Source: Vampirovibrio sp. (GTDB lineage Bacteria > Cyanobacteriota > Vampirovibrionia > Vampirovibrionales > JAJTHC01). Taken from it: 64,000 nucleotides of DNA. Shown here one piece after another: positions 29,986 to 50,920 of this stretch. The stretch is from contig JACEUU010000002.1 in the NCBI GenBank assembly GCA_024998755.1, forward strand, positions 602,045-666,044, given 5' to 3'. The position numbers and the translations under genes are program-made. Each line of letters starts with the position of its first letter. The first letter of the stretch is position 1. The notes under the pieces are model-generated. The model was not told where the DNA came from and did not search any database. It saw only the letters and a program-made list of their open reading frames with translations.

Positions 29986-30804
29986 CTAATGCCAACGAAC
30001 ACCCGTATTTATCAAAATTTGACGAATAATAGGTAACAAGCTGGGTAACATCAAGTAAAAAATCATCAACCCTAACAGTGGTTTAATACTAGACCCTAAC
30101 TGAAAAACTGGTATTTGCTGAGCCGTTTTATTCACAATGCCCAACATAATATCTAGCACAATAGTAATCACAAAAAACGGCGCAGCCAAAATCAAGCCCG
30201 TATCTAAAATTTGTTTAGAATAATGCACAATTTCAGGCAAACTTAAATGTAAAAACCAATTACTAGCCACCCCAGAAAGCGGAATCAATTCAAAGGTTTT
30301 AGCCAAGCCCCCAACCAACCATTCAAGCCCCCCAATGGAAAGATATATAAGCGTTGCAATAAAGCCTAAAAAAGGGCCCATCAAGGCGTTTTGCTGTTGC
30401 GTGGTAGGGTCCATAATATTGGCAGCAGAAAGCCCAATTTGGTTGTTGGTCAACGCCCCTGATGAAGTAATAATTTCAAGCAGCCATTTCGTAGTAAACC
30501 CAATAACCGATCCTAAAACTGCATTCAACGTTACAAATAACAAAAATTGAGGTAAGGTAACTTCTTTTAGTAAGCTAGCTTGGGCTGAAACCGAAGGGAG
30601 GTTCATCAACGCTGTGGTCATAGCCATTGCCACAGAAACTTTGAGCGGGTTCGGCATATCTTTTCGGCTAAATAAAGCAGCCTGCATAATAAACGGGAGC
30701 GTTCGGCTAAAGGTCAGCAACCAAACATCTAAAAAGCCGCCCAGTTGCTGGTGTAGCACCCCAAAGCTTTGAAGTAACGGTTGAAAGGTATCAACGGAGG
30801 TCAT
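29986..30804 (-). CDS. fliR: flagellar/type III export apparatus protein FliR
   Basis: FliR-type polytopic protein; gene order FliP-FliQ-FliR. Confidence 0.88.
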   Translation of the reverse strand: MTSVDTFQPLLQSFGVLHQQLGGFLDVWLLTFSRTLPFIMQAALFSRKDMPNPLKVSVAMAMTTALMNLPSVSAQASLLKEVTLPQFLLFVTLNAVLGSVIGFTTKWLLEIITSSGALTNNQIGLSAANIMDPTTQQQNALMGPFLGFIATLIYLSIGGLEWLVGGLAKTFELIPLSGVASNWFLHLSLPEIVHYSKQILDTGLILAAPFFVITIVLDIMLGIVNKTAQQIPVFQLGSSIKPLLGLMIFYLMLPSLLPIIRQILINTGVRWH

Positions 30805-30810
30805 ACTGGT

Positions 30811-31182
30811 TTAAAACCGAAAATTAGCAGGCGGAATAAACTGAAACCGAAACTGTCCTGGGGGTAATGATTGCCTTGAAAACCGACTAGGGGCGGGGGG
30901 TAAAACTCTATTGCCGGCGTGGGGAATGGTTTGAAAGGCTAATTGCATTGATTCACGAATGTAGCCACCCAACATTTGCATCATCAGGCTACCCCCTGCT
31001 ATCAGCAATACAAACACGATAATCAGCTTAGGTACGGCACTAATGGTTTGTTCCTGCACTTGGGTTACGGCTTGCAAAATACCCACTAACAGCCCAATAG
31101 CCGCTGCGGCTAGTACCAACGGCATACTAATCATTAGGCTTAACATAATGCCTTTTCTGACGTGTTCCAGTAAATAATCCAT
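30811..31182 (-). CDS. fliQ: flagellar export protein FliQ with C-terminal extension
   Basis: GIMLSLMISMPLVLAAAAIGLLVGILQAVTQVQEQTISAVPKLIIVFVLLIAGGSLMMQML. Confidence 0.92.
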   Translation of the reverse strand: MDYLLEHVRKGIMLSLMISMPLVLAAAAIGLLVGILQAVTQVQEQTISAVPKLIIVFVLLIAGGSLMMQMLGGYIRESMQLAFQTIPHAGNRVLPPAPSRFSRQSLPPGQFRFQFIPPANFRF

Positions 31183-31265: not shown

Positions 31266-31931
31266 TTAGTTAAAGCTACGAACCAGCCCTCGAACAATCA
31301 GCCCCCATCCATCAACGGCAACAAAGATGAGGATTTTAAAGGGAAGCGAAATAATTGTGGGCGAAAGCATCATCATACCCAGTGCCATTAGGATGTTAGA
31401 AACCACTAAATCCACAATAACAAAGGGTACAAAAATAACGAAACCTATTTCAAACGAGGTGCGTAATTCACTGAGCATATAAGCTGGAGCTACTTCCCAA
31501 ATTTCCAATTCTTTGGGGGAAGCGGGCGGTTTGTCTCGGCTCATTTCCAAGAAAATTTTCACATCTTCTTGGCGGGTTTGCCGAAGCATGAAATTTTTCA
31601 ATGGCACACTACCTTCATCCAAAATTTCAAGAATATTGGCTTTGGGTTTTTTAAGCATCGGGTCTACCACTGTGTAAATTTCCCCAAAAATGGGTCCCAT
31701 AGTATACAGCGTAAGCACCAAGGCTAAGCCAACCAATATAACGGCGGGTGGTACTTGTTGTGTACCCATAGCTTGTTTGAGGATTGAAAACACAATGGCG
31801 TACCGCATGAAACTGGTCATGCCAGCCAGCATGAAGGGAAGCAGGGTCATAGACCCCATCAGTAGAATAAGCTGTAGGGCGGGGTCTATTGAGCCTAGGG
31901 CTATTGAAGCTGCACCAGCAACCATCATCAT
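31266..31931 (-). CDS. fliP: flagellar export protein FliP
   Basis: LLMGSMTLLPFMLAGMTSFMRYAIVFSILKQAMGTQQVPP, PAYMLSELRTSFEIGFVIFVPFVIVDLVVSNILMALGMMMLSP. Confidence 0.95.
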   Translation of the reverse strand: MMMVAGAASIALGSIDPALQLILLMGSMTLLPFMLAGMTSFMRYAIVFSILKQAMGTQQVPPAVILVGLALVLTLYTMGPIFGEIYTVVDPMLKKPKANILEILDEGSVPLKNFMLRQTRQEDVKIFLEMSRDKPPASPKELEIWEVAPAYMLSELRTSFEIGFVIFVPFVIVDLVVSNILMALGMMMLSPTIISLPFKILIFVAVDGWGLIVRGLVRSFN

Positions 31932-43945: not shown

Positions 43946-45883
43946 TTGTTACATTTTTATGAAGATGTTGTTACATACCCCATGACACCCCAGCCTCCAT
44001 CCTCCGCATTTTCAACACTTCGTAGTGAAGCTTCACTGGCTAGTGTTAATTTTTGGTTGGGTTGCCAGTTGAATACGGCTTGGCAACAGTGGGTTAATAC
44101 GTTTTCTGTTCAGCCTGTAGGGGGCTTTAAATTAATTGCTTGTGGGTATAAGTTACCCCCCACTTGGCAGATGGATTCTTACTTAACCTACCAGTTCCCT
44201 GTCGAACATTCTGCATTGGAAGGCTTAAAAGTTCATCATGCCATTTCTGAAACAGCGATGGAATTACGACTTTCCTCAGGGTTTCAGCATGCGTGTTTGA
44301 AGGATTGGTTAGGACACCATGCCTCTGGTACATCAATAAAGCAGCCCCACTCCGCTAACCCGATAGCTACTTCACCAACCAGTTTGGAACGGTTTATACT
44401 GAACACCTTTGTTAAGCAGTGTTTTGCAGCCTTGCAACAACAATGGTGCGAACCGGCTTTAACTTATCAGCAGCAACAAGAGGAAAACGGTAGAATGAAT
44501 ACCTTGGGTAACCTAGACGAAACGCTGATTCATTTTGCTTGGGTTTATTCTCCTGTTGAAGCGGGTACGTTATCTGTTGATGCCCAGAATAATGGGGAAT
44601 ATGCCCCGATGGTATTAGATGAAATGCCTGTTTCCTTACCCAAGGTTATTTTATCAATACCGCAATATTATCTTCCAACGCAAAGCCATGCCATTCATCG
44701 ATTTCAGCCAACCGTCGGGCAATCTACTATAACAGAAACTGTCGCCTATTTAGCTGCTCAAGGTATTCCTGCTAGAAGCACCGCCACGCTTTGTGCGGGG
44801 TCTACCCAATTAAGTACGGCAGATTTAAAAGCCCTTGAATACGATGACTTAATTGTGCTGGAAGACAGTCATTTTCAGCAACTATTTTTAAAGCACCCAG
44901 CCTTGGAAGTGTATATGCCGTTTCCTATTTCGGGTATTACCCAATGGCCTTATCAAATACCGACCCCAATACCCGTTTTACCAACCAAAGCACCACCTTC
45001 GGAAAGGGTTCACCCTGCAATGATGATGAGTTCTCCCCATGTGTCGCATAGCCAACAAGCTAACCACCCCCATCTGTCGCCACCAGTTGGTAGTACAGAA
45101 TGGCATAATCTGCCTCAGCAAGCCCAACAATCCTTGTGGGATTCGTTGAAAGTAGATGTTCATGCTGAATTTGCACCCGCTAAAATACCGGTAGGGCATT
45201 TAAAGCAAATGAGCGAAGGCTTAATTGTAGAAGTGGCAGATTTACTAAAAAATCAAGTGCAATTGGTTGTAAACGGTAGCGTGTTAGCCCATGGGCAATT
45301 GGTTATTGTGGGCGATAAATTTGGGGTATTACTAACTAATGTGGTGGGAAAAGAATCGCCCAGTTTACCAGCCTTGGGAGATGGCGTACCAGACCAATTG
45401 GCGGTTCATTCCGCTATCCAACAGGATTCTGGCGAGTTGGGACAGCATGAACATGTATCTGAAGAACAGTATGCCCAGCCTCAACAGCACGTTAAACCCT
45501 ATGAAGGCATTGACCCTAATTTAGTGCAGGCCGCTTTGCAAATGGGTATAGACCCCTTCCTTGCCCAAACAGCCTTGCAATTAGGTATGGATTTACAGCA
45601 AGTATTGGAAGCAGCCCAGCAGCAGGGCATGGAACCGAACCAGTTCTTAACCTTAGTATTTCAGCAACAAGGCATAGAAGTACCTACCCCGCAACAACGT
45701 CAGCAACAATCACAATTTCAAGGCGGTAATGCGGGTATGATGAATCGTCAGCAACAGGAAGGCGAAGCCCCCGAAGAATACGTGCAAGAAGTGAGCCGTG
45801 CGAATGAAATGTTGAGCGAAGTAGATAGTTTGCTAAACGAAGAATTTGAAGATGAGGAATACGAAGAGGAAGAAGACGAATAA
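43946..45883 (+). CDS. FliM/FliN-fusion (SctQ-like) protein with two SpoA-like domains and C-terminal Q-rich repeats
   Basis: SpoA-like AGSTQLSTADLKALEYDDLIVLED and VDVHAEFAPAKIPVGHLKQMSEGLIVEVADLLKNQVQLVVNGSVLAHGQLVIVGDKFGVLLTNV; repeats GIDPNLVQAALQM/GIDPFLAQTALQL/GMDLQQVLEAAQQQ/GMEPNQFLTLVFQQQ. Confidence 0.7.
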   Translation: MLHFYEDVVTYPMTPQPPSSAFSTLRSEASLASVNFWLGCQLNTAWQQWVNTFSVQPVGGFKLIACGYKLPPTWQMDSYLTYQFPVEHSALEGLKVHHAISETAMELRLSSGFQHACLKDWLGHHASGTSIKQPHSANPIATSPTSLERFILNTFVKQCFAALQQQWCEPALTYQQQQEENGRMNTLGNLDETLIHFAWVYSPVEAGTLSVDAQNNGEYAPMVLDEMPVSLPKVILSIPQYYLPTQSHAIHRFQPTVGQSTITETVAYLAAQGIPARSTATLCAGSTQLSTADLKALEYDDLIVLEDSHFQQLFLKHPALEVYMPFPISGITQWPYQIPTPIPVLPTKAPPSERVHPAMMMSSPHVSHSQQANHPHLSPPVGSTEWHNLPQQAQQSLWDSLKVDVHAEFAPAKIPVGHLKQMSEGLIVEVADLLKNQVQLVVNGSVLAHGQLVIVGDKFGVLLTNVVGKESPSLPALGDGVPDQLAVHSAIQQDSGELGQHEHVSEEQYAQPQQHVKPYEGIDPNLVQAALQMGIDPFLAQTALQLGMDLQQVLEAAQQQGMEPNQFLTLVFQQQGIEVPTPQQRQQQSQFQGGNAGMMNRQQQEGEAPEEYVQEVSRANEMLSEVDSLLNEEFEDEEYEEEEDE

Positions 45884-46299: not shown

Positions 46300-46911
46300 A
46301 TGCCACACCCTGCTAATTACGCTATGACAGCCGCCACTACCACGCACGTTGCCTCTCATCTGCCCCCTGTACCTGAAACCAATAGCACCATATTACTATG
46401 GAAATACTTAGGCACTGTGGGTAGCTGGACTTTACTAGTAATTGCCGCTTTGTTATGGATGTATTGGCAACTCAAGAAAAACCCTGCATTCTTAAATCGT
46501 ATAAAAAGTATGCTGGGTGCACCTGTTTCACCCGTAGAATACCAAGAAAGTAGAAGTTTGGTGGTAGAAGAAACAATTCAGCTTGATGCGGATAAATTAC
46601 TTCATTTAGTGCGGTGTGAAGGCGAAAAATTTTTAATGAGCAATGGGCCTGATGGCTTGAAATTGCTGACCAAAGTTACCAGTTGGCAAGAAGCGATGCA
46701 GCATTTGCAACACGAAGAACAACAGCAACAAGTCAATCCTCATTCTGGTGTTACAGAACGTACTCAAGCCATGGTGGATGCCCACGGGGATGTGCATTTA
46801 ACCAATACCCCTCAATCAACCGTTCATCCAACCGCTACAGGGGTTTCATTCCCAATGGGTATGCCCAAAACGATTTTGGGGCAAAATGTGCCATGGTTCA
46901 CTAATCGGTAG
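46300..46911 (+). CDS. FliO-like flagellar biosynthesis protein
   Basis: Single TM (LLWKYLGTVGSWTLLVIAALLWMYWQLKK) then SRSLVVEETIQLDADKLLHLVRCEGEKFLMSNGPDGLKLLTKV, FliO-type beta domain; follows the SpoA-domain gene. Confidence 0.6.
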   Translation: MPHPANYAMTAATTTHVASHLPPVPETNSTILLWKYLGTVGSWTLLVIAALLWMYWQLKKNPAFLNRIKSMLGAPVSPVEYQESRSLVVEETIQLDADKLLHLVRCEGEKFLMSNGPDGLKLLTKVTSWQEAMQHLQHEEQQQQVNPHSGVTERTQAMVDAHGDVHLTNTPQSTVHPTATGVSFPMGMPKTILGQNVPWFTNR

Positions 46912-47019: not shown

Positions 47020-48105
47020 TTACACATGAAACGCATGGTCTATCAACGTTTCAGCATAGGCACTGGCTTTAATAGCCGCTACGCTGTTAAAGGTAACTGA
47101 AGCATTTGCCACATCATAAGCCGTTAACGCATTAGTAACGTTAACTAAATCAGCAGCACTTAAGAAGAAGCCATCGTTGGCTTTAATAGCCCCTAAACCA
47201 TAACCATTCCCTGCAAATTGATTCACCACGGTTAGTTGCCCCTCTTGGTCATCAAAGCCAATTACCAAGTTGTTACCTTGCCGAAGGAAAACAATATCTT
47301 GATGATTATTCTCAATAATTAACGTGTTACTTAAGCCTGTATTAGGCGTTTGGTAAGCGGTTAGCGTGCCGGCATTAGCCCCAGTAAAGCCTACTAAATC
47401 AATGGTATTATTAAACCCTGAAACGCAAACCACATCAGCAGTAGTTGCTTGAATATAGTTACGTCCGCCATTGACTTTTACCACGTCAAAATCCGCTACA
47501 GACCCTGTAAATAACACGTTATTGGAATCGCCCTTAACGGTTAGCTTGTCAAAACCAGCATCGCCATATAGGTTATTGGCTACACCGTTCACGGTTATCA
47601 CATCGTTTCCACCGCCACCGTGCAGTAAATTGTATTTACCAAAAACGGTAATCGTATCGCTACCTACCGTATCTGGTCCCGGTGCGTAATAGGCAGATTT
47701 ATCGCCGAAAATTTCGTTACGTTCACCGTAAACGGTTATTTTATCGTTACCGCCCCAGCCAGCGTAGCCATTCCATTGCCCGTATATAGTAGCCGTGCCA
47801 TTACCTTGCGAATCGTTTAGTTGATTGTAATTCCCTTGCACAAATAGGGTATCGTTACCGGTTTCTTGAAAGGTAACCCACACGCGGTTGCCATCGCCCG
47901 CAATTTGCATATAATCAGACCCATCACCGCCAAACATTGTGGTGTTGTTACCGGAAATGTAGAGTTGGTCGTTACCGCTACCAGCTTCAATGTAAGCGTT
48001 GCTACCGTTTAAAATAACCACGTCATCACCACCTTGGGCAAAAACAGAATCGTTATTACCGGCATAAATTTTGTTATAGTCGTTGTTTCCGTAAAGCGTT
48101 GCCAT
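47020..48105 (-). CDS. RTX/hemolysin-type repeat protein
   Basis: YAGNNDSVFAQGGDDVVILNGSNAYIEAGSGNDQLYISGNNTTMFGGDGSDYMQ...; start taken as MATLYGNN. Confidence 0.75.
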   Translation of the reverse strand: MATLYGNNDYNKIYAGNNDSVFAQGGDDVVILNGSNAYIEAGSGNDQLYISGNNTTMFGGDGSDYMQIAGDGNRVWVTFQETGNDTLFVQGNYNQLNDSQGNGTATIYGQWNGYAGWGGNDKITVYGERNEIFGDKSAYYAPGPDTVGSDTITVFGKYNLLHGGGGNDVITVNGVANNLYGDAGFDKLTVKGDSNNVLFTGSVADFDVVKVNGGRNYIQATTADVVCVSGFNNTIDLVGFTGANAGTLTAYQTPNTGLSNTLIIENNHQDIVFLRQGNNLVIGFDDQEGQLTVVNQFAGNGYGLGAIKANDGFFLSAADLVNVTNALTAYDVANASVTFNSVAAIKASAYAETLIDHAFHV

Positions 48106-48545
48106 AATAAAGTTCCCTTTCAAATTACAGGTACTTGAAGCATGCTCATTCAAATGACAATCCATTTTTTTACTGTTTAGCGGTGGTTGATTGTTTGAAT
48201 GGTAGCCACACAATGTTAACTGCAGTAAAAATTGAACACCAACACAACACAGGTAATACCATATAGTGATACGGCTTAATTAGGTTGTTTTTATTTGTAT
48301 GTCCTTCCAATAAGATACGCTTATTTTCTAAGATAATGCAAGTTAATTTTTATTAAAATGTCCTGATACAGATTCACAGTTTAAATATCGTCAGCGTATA
48401 AGTTGTTACTAGCCAGTCAAAAATCCTCAAAGTACGTCTCTGTACTCCTGCGGTTTTTAACGCTCTTGTGCCTAGTCTCCATCTAACGCTATTCAATCTA
48501 TGAATCGGTATGAATCCCTGTAGAAGAGGGTTTTTTTAAAGGTGT

Positions 48546-50140: not shown

Positions 50141-50920
50141 GTGAACTTAGAAGACTTCTTATCATTAGACGATAAACTAGATATAACCATTTGGCGTGAT
50201 GCCAGCAAGGTTGGCAGTAGTGGTAGTAGCGATGAATTCTTGTATAAGTCATCTGTTTTAGATGTGCAAGACGGGAAGATTCTTGTTTATTTTCCACCCG
50301 AAGACATGCCTGCTTTTGAATGGGTTCGGCAGGGGCAAAAATTAAGAATTGTGGTAACGCGTCCTAATGGGTTATGGTCATTTTTTCCGACCGTGGGACA
50401 ATTTGTATTAAAGGGTTCTCCAAGATTTTGGTTAAAACTGCCTGAAGATGTAGAACATATTCAACGTCGTAAGCACGTTCGGGTTAAACATACTTTTCCA
50501 TTGCAGTTGCAATTAGAAAACAATGCCTTGCCTAGTAATTCTGCACTAAGTAGTAAGCAGGTAGCTGCTAGCAAGCCAACCGTACCTGTTGTGTTGAAAT
50601 CCGTTGATATTAGTGCGGGTGGCATACGTTTTAAAACAGCTACACCATTAGTACCTGGGCAGATGTTAACGGTTAAATTCACGATAACCCCTGAATTTGG
50701 CGAATTAACCAATTTGGCTAGAATTGTGTATTGTTTTAGCCCTGAAGAAATGCCCGCATCTTCTTCTTATGCTAACAAAGTACCTAGCAAGTTATTGGGT
50801 GCTAAAAAAGAATATATTGCTGCATTGCAATTTATAGAATTACCCAGAGATTCGGAAAAGCGAATTATTCAAGAATGTTTTCATTTGGAATTAGAGCAGC
50901 ATCGTAAAGGTGTACGGTAA
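50141..50920 (+). CDS. PilZ-domain (YcgR-like) c-di-GMP-binding protein
   Basis: IQRRKHVRV and DISAGGIRF match RxxxR and (D/N)xSxxG; preceding YcgR-N-like domain. Confidence 0.85.
   Translation: MNLEDFLSLDDKLDITIWRDASKVGSSGSSDEFLYKSSVLDVQDGKILVYFPPEDMPAFEWVRQGQKLRIVVTRPNGLWSFFPTVGQFVLKGSPRFWLKLPEDVEHIQRRKHVRVKHTFPLQLQLENNALPSNSALSSKQVAASKPTVPVVLKSVDISAGGIRFKTATPLVPGQMLTVKFTITPEFGELTNLARIVYCFSPEEMPASSSYANKVPSKLLGAKKEYIAALQFIELPRDSEKRIIQECFHLELEQHRKGVR

Follow-up and report, generated by a model that had tools for sequence, protein, structure and literature searches.

This analysis concerns an sctQ-like gene in a 64,000-nucleotide stretch of a Vampirovibrio sp. genome (C2:602045-666044 of 2.49 Mb in three contigs; hereafter the window), together with a second set of type III export genes in the same genome. 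The open reading frame (ORF) that contains the gene lies at 43946-45883 on the forward strand, as noted earlier, and encodes 645 amino acids if counted from the TTG at 43946; the likelier start is an in-frame ATG at 43982, giving 633 amino acids, because an ortholog from the same genus, found in a metagenome-assembled genome (MAG) from Lake Pavin, starts near there. The predicted product runs from a FliM-like part through two SpoA segments to a short helical repeat and an acidic tail (Table 1).

Table 1. Coordinates of the sctQ-like gene, its internal features and the other second-system genes of the window.
Feature	Position	Strand	Basis
sctQ-like gene: FliM-like N-terminal and middle part, SpoA1, SpoA2, 13-residue repeat, acidic tail	43982..45883	+	Sequence, Pfam, NCBIfam, family alignment, model, Foldseek
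SpoA1 region (approximately residues 269-315, counted from ATG 43982)	44786..44926	+	Family alignment, NCBIfam SctQ, predicted strands, Foldseek
Candidate internal ribosome-binding site GGAAAGGG (45001-45008) and in-frame start ATGATGATG (45020-45028)	45001..45028	+	Sequence; start and Shine-Dalgarno pattern of the family
SpoA2 domain	45143..45346	+	Pfam PF01052, 49 bits
Four tandem helical repeats of 13-15 residues and a partial fifth	45506..45679	+	Shuffles, p = 0.0005; helices, pLDDT about 95
Acidic C-terminal tail	45818..45880	+	80/88 family members with 7 or more Asp/Glu among their last 15 residues
fliO-like gene of the second system, next after sctQ	46300..46911	+	Pfam FliO, 21 bits (cut-off 22, E 4e-4)
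sctR/fliP of the second system	31266..31931	-	Orthologs downstream of sctQ in 74/74 loci
sctS/fliQ of the second system	30811..31182	-	FliQ-type, next after sctR/fliP
sctT/fliR of the second system	29986..30804	-	FliR-type, next after sctS/fliQ

The sctQ-like protein and its candidate short form

SpoA2 (residues 400-467) is a clear match to Pfam FliMN_C, well above the cut-off of 23.8 bits, and is the one SpoA domain that Pfam detects in the protein; the Pfam search gave no match for SpoA1. The claim of two SpoA segments stands on other evidence: the NCBIfam SctQ model TIGR02551 covers both positions (residues 277-461; 48.9 bits, under its cut-off of 100.8), both segments are visible throughout a family alignment of 20 sequences in which SpoA1 is plain, an AlphaFold model (mean predicted local distance difference test score, pLDDT, of 65) has strands at both, and the top PDB matches in Foldseek are 4yxb/4yxc, a FliM(SpoA)::FliN fusion, with FliM chains from the flagellar C-ring coming next. 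Thus the original prediction, which had described a single-chain SctQ-like protein with two SpoA segments and a FliM/SctQ-like region upstream, was right as to domain layout, with a FliM-like middle part preceding SpoA1 and the predicted fold in agreement.

That prediction had also pointed to a C-terminal repeat of about 14 residues and to an acidic tail, and both were recovered. The repeat (GIDPNLVQAALQM...) has a unit of 13-15 residues: self-alignment at offsets of 12-15 residues exceeds that of shuffled sequences, and two models predict five short helices spaced about 13-18 residues apart. It is confined, among the relatives, to the family of genomes to which the window's genome belongs; the acidic tail is general. 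A Foldseek comparison of the repeat and tail with PDB returned no match under E 0.5, the best being designed alpha toroids, and assignment of the repeat to a known fold was rejected.

Ahead of SpoA2 lies a candidate internal ribosome-binding site followed in frame by ATGATGATG, from which initiation (at 45020) would yield a 287-amino-acid product consisting of SpoA2, the repeat and the tail. An in-frame ATG or GTG with an upstream Shine-Dalgarno (SD) core is found 5-20 codons before the conserved SpoA2 Trp in 77 of the 88 family members (which are kin), as against 35/1822 control windows of the same genes and an expectation from synonymous shuffles of 35.3 (sd 4.3, maximum 44) of 88. The SD core occurs in two codon phases, encoding either GG or KGE, and therefore the encoded residues vary while the DNA signal persists. 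Further, six family members without Met at the internal site have GTG instead, and the same-genus ortholog retains GAAAGGG and ATGATG despite a divergent surrounding linker. Because a start with an SD core is conserved before SpoA2, one sctQ gene probably yields two products, as in the case of injectisome SctQ: a long one comparable to FliM-FliN and a short one comparable to FliN. In Shigella, the single gene spa33 gives two products, found as Spa33 FL:C2, or one long to two short (PMC4832279), and the sctQ gene for HrcQ likewise yields a long protein and a short one consisting of SpoA2 only (PMC8553256).

Two export gene sets in one genome

Matches to PF01052 fall at three places in the window's genome: the sctQ-like gene, a flagellar fliM (SpoA together with PF02154 at 166 bits) and, adjacent to fliM, a gene of the FliY/FliN type. 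The flagellum thus owns separate ring proteins. The original prediction had proposed that C-ring functions were fused in one chain rather than divided between FliM and FliN, and for the flagellum this fails, a separate pair being present elsewhere in the genome; the fusion as a stand-in for flagellar FliM/FliN was accordingly rejected, and what survives of the idea is that the sctQ-like fusion is the only SpoA protein found in its own apparatus.

That apparatus can be traced through duplicated genes: FlhA, FliF, FlhB, FliI and FliP are each present twice. FliF2, a protein K, FliH2 and FlhA2 form one operon; the operon of sctQ, sctR, sctS and sctT (Q-R-S-T) is broken into Q-O and T-S-R, the O being a fliO-like gene whose orthologs at the equivalent place score 26-27 bits with Pfam FliO. 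A second rod set is represented by two genes of FlgF/G type and one of FlgB type (L146); second copies of the FlgC-type and FliE-type genes were not located in this genome.

The relatives give a more compact picture. A scan of named genomes found 269 relatives; among the best 80, most carry the label Vampirovibrionales, Gastranaerophilales, Melainabacteria or uncultured cyanobacteria/bacteria. Vampirovibrio-labelled MAGs represent the window's own order, and the family of genomes f6 is of Gastranaerophilales type (G049 and G053 are Gastranaerophilales MAGs). In all 74 loci holding the four genes, drawn from both orders, the order Q-R-S-T is kept on one strand and within 4 kb; a FliO-like gene was detected in 31 of these, and elsewhere the gap between Q and R is 0.3-0.7 kb, leaving room for one. 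The FliF2-K-FliH2-FlhA2 operon recurs in families f2, f3 and f6, in several cases with FliE as a neighbour, and in several genomes it adjoins the second rod set, which by Pfam comprises two FlgF/G-type, one FlgB-type and one FlgC-type protein plus FliE and an SLT transglycosylase. The gut genomes also carry FliJ-like, FliK-like and hook-like genes together (the FliJ and FliK matches being under cut-off), in one genome near the FlhB2 gene.

FliG and flagellin are restricted to genomes with a flagellar set: there is a single FliG per Vampirovibrionales genome, and neither protein was found in any of the f6 (9/9), f7 (3/3) or f8 (3/3) genomes searched. The f6 genomes have one SpoA protein match each, that is, the sctQ-like protein only. 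An FlhA of the FlhA2 clade is present in all of these genomes that were searched with FlhA2 (6 f6, 3 f7 and 3 f8), as well as in f5 genomes, and FlhA2 of the window's genome is 61-71% identical to that of f2, f3 and f6, compared with 36-39% between FlhA2 and the flagellar FlhA of the same genomes. The system therefore occurs even where there is no flagellum, and its conservation is strong. No frameshifts were seen in the reading frames examined.

These results bear directly on whether the gene set is the decaying remnant of a flagellum, as is implied by papers on the incomplete flagellar set of Gastranaerophilales. Only a subset of flagellar genes was reported for most Gastranaerophilales, from which loss of flagella was inferred (Soo 2014, PMC4040986), and a subset was likewise described in gut genomes, with no P/L rings in MEL.A1 (Di Rienzi 2013, PMC3787301); these descriptions speak for a remnant. 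We nevertheless regard decay as very improbable, the least probable of the alternatives weighed here: Vampirovibrionales have the set side by side with a distinct flagellar one, FlhA2 shows strong conservation between orders, the gene order is intact in every locus holding Q-R-S-T, and the internal start signal is itself conserved.

A proposed place between flagella and injectisomes

A second true flagellum, lateral or alternative, in which the sctQ-like protein would be a C-ring part, or an alternative switch protein in the single flagellum, would fit the observations that every export part scores closer to flagellar than to injectisome models and that the set includes rod proteins and FliE as well as one FliK-like and one hook-like protein. 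Against this reading, Vampirovibrionales have a single FliG and Gastranaerophilales-type genomes none, yet keep the system, and the latter also have no flagellin. Protein K (L037:12635-13765) occupies the FliG/SctK slot between FliF2 and FliH2, a position kept in f1, f2, f3 and f6, and its motif ALALLL..K.Q.IL..F..EEQ bears a weak likeness to part of FliG; comparison with the FliG profile was non-significant (E 0.024, probability 2%, over 30 columns of the FliG middle part). Pfam and PDB searches gave nothing significant, including no match to FliG_C, and K was assigned to neither FliG nor SctK. A second flagellum or alternative switch is therefore, in our judgment, unlikely.

In a tree of FlhA, FlhA2 proteins form a clade (support 100/100) apart from the sampled flagellar FlhA and the injectisome SctV; the flagellar FlhA group itself has support of only 88/88, and the references are few and mostly plasmid-borne. 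By these sequences FlhA2 is a distinct clade. Its position outside the SctV group argues against an ordinary injectisome, a non-flagellar type III secretion system (T3SS) delivering effectors into eukaryotic cells, as do the retained FliO-like protein, FliE and rod proteins, a SctQ score half of the TIGR02551 cut-off and the lack of a secretin linked to the second-system genes. The single-chain SctQ with its internal start signal, the sctQRST order and the unassigned protein K, which stands between genes of SctJ and SctL type in the way known from injectisomes, do speak for that alternative, which we consider highly unlikely; injectisome membership was rejected on the FlhA clade, the rod proteins and the TIGR02551 score.

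We consider it likely that the sctQ-like protein forms the cytoplasmic ring, or "pods", of a second type III export apparatus that is distinct from the flagellum. Its components are a FliF-type membrane ring, an export gate of the FliO/P/Q/R, FlhA and FlhB type, an ATPase and stator of the FliI and FliH type, FliE, and a transglycosylase to cut the wall, with rod proteins that could span the periplasm. Without FliG, a separate FliM and flagellin, and probably also without motor stators (presumed missing rather than searched for), it should export proteins and not rotate. The long chain, equivalent to a FliM-FliN fusion, and the FliN-like short form from the internal start before SpoA2 would together build the ring or the pods, after the manner of Shigella Spa33 (one long to two short), and so provide docking for FliH-FliI at the gate formed by FlhA; the acidic tail, with the helical repeat in the window's group, would be carried on both products and could provide a docking surface.

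Several points weigh against this reading. It is drawn from genes, sequences and predicted structures. The second-system genes are scattered in the window's genome, so that the case for their joint function rests on the relatives, and none of the genome's three secretins adjoins any of them, which leaves the outer-membrane exit unaccounted for (P/L-ring genes were not searched for). Grouping of FlhA2 with the lineage's own flagellar FlhA was not rejected in the approximately unbiased (AU) test (p = 0.16), and FlhA2 may thus be a duplicate of that protein. As for the internal start, the window's gene is without a strong SD core at its internal ATGs and its own SD-like site GGAAAGGG is weak (-4.9 kcal/mol), the support being the triple ATG, this site and the family pattern; internal runs of three Met are not very rare (3 in 70,252 amino acids, near chance), and such a run by itself was rejected as too weak a proof of a start. 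The kinship of the 88 sequences also means that the statistical significance of the start and SD enrichment is overstated and should not be taken literally.

With these points in mind, the second export apparatus is best read as a motor-less, rod-bearing type III secretion machine between flagella and injectisomes. Its ring protein resembles injectisome SctQ (Spa33, SpaO, YscQ, HrcQ) in having two SpoA segments in one chain after a FliM-like part and sctRST downstream; an internal start for a SpoA2-only form, established for the injectisome proteins (PMC4832279, PMC8553256), is probable here from a signal conserved in the family. It differs from them in falling under the SctQ model cut-off, in its acidic tail and, in one group, the helical repeat, in the fliO-like gene that comes next, and in its system, which bears a rod and lies outside the SctV clade. 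With flagellar FliM and FliN/FliY it shares the SpoA folds, a gene order like fliN-fliO-fliP-fliQ-fliR and the company of rod proteins, FliE and FliO; unlike them, it is a single gene with no FliG partner and no filament, in a genome that has separate FliM and FliY/FliN.

Two other systems invite comparison. The non-flagellar T3SS of Myxococcales, which lacks FlgB, FlgC and FliE and was interpreted as an intermediate between flagellum and injectisome (Abby & Rocha 2012, PMC3459982), likewise has no motor, filament or linked secretin, whereas FlgB, FlgC and FliE are kept here (a comparison by description and not by sequence). The hat-like inner-membrane structure (PMC9380563), related to the flagellar T3SS, is evidence that export parts of flagellar type can be put to use in a different structure; it was seen by cryo-electron tomography in flagellated species, its composition is unknown, and no link between it and the present gene set is shown.

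None of the open-access papers found reports that this class has a second type III system, and a description may exist elsewhere. We propose that the "flagellar" gene subsets reported in Gastranaerophilales largely represent a separate machine. Both these common gut bacteria and the order to which the predator Vampirovibrio belongs seem to have an export machine that the papers found took only for genes of flagella, whether complete or broken, which changes the reading of "flagellar genes" in gut metagenomes. A broader proposal, plausible and offered tentatively, is that this is a third T3SS lineage, neither flagellum nor injectisome, that extends class-wide (Vampirovibrionales and gut Gastranaerophilales), combines a flagellar rod with a single-gene, two-product SctQ and secretes toward neighbours, prey or hosts, so that much of what has been called partial flagella in gut Melainabacteria would be the same machine. 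A living rod-bearing, motor-less type III system would complement the Myxococcales intermediate, so that one can test which parts of the flagellum disappeared first, and which later, as secretion evolved from it; it also suggests that a single-gene, two-product ring protein occurs beyond injectisomes, whether via shared descent or convergence.

Additional observations in the window and related genomes

In FlhB2 of the window's genome (L052:9686-10807) the autocleavage motif reads NPIH instead of NPTH, the form that flagellar FlhB and the gut FlhB2 proteins examined keep; a HEAT-repeat protein (102 bits; L052:10815-12113) adjoins it on the same strand. Proteins matching only the C-terminal cytoplasmic part of FlhA also occur, one of 289 amino acids beside FlhA2 in one genome (L145:1998-2867) and others, of about 500 amino acids, in each of the six f6 genomes where FlhA was sought (e.g., G053:C12:12737-13798). 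Reiterated start codons are common in the window's genome: at least three consecutive Met fall within the first 40 residues in 34 of 202 ORFs, as in MMMMMM-FlhA2 and MMMMM-FliM (loci including L038:8017, L053:8288 and L037:11571).

Glycine-aspartate-rich (RTX-like) repeat proteins lie by FliO2 (window 47020-48213, reverse strand) and by FliF2 (L037:15952-16845), and another is beside flagellar FlhB (L053:6764-8152); these are possibly exported proteins. A PilZ protein at 50141-50920 of the window (forward strand), with a weak YcgR-type N-terminal match, is a possible flagellar brake responding to cyclic di-GMP. Near-identical copies of an apparent transposase ORF were found at L050:1514-2479, L051:11350-11895, L054:9703-10668 and L055:14797-15762, one of them shortened.
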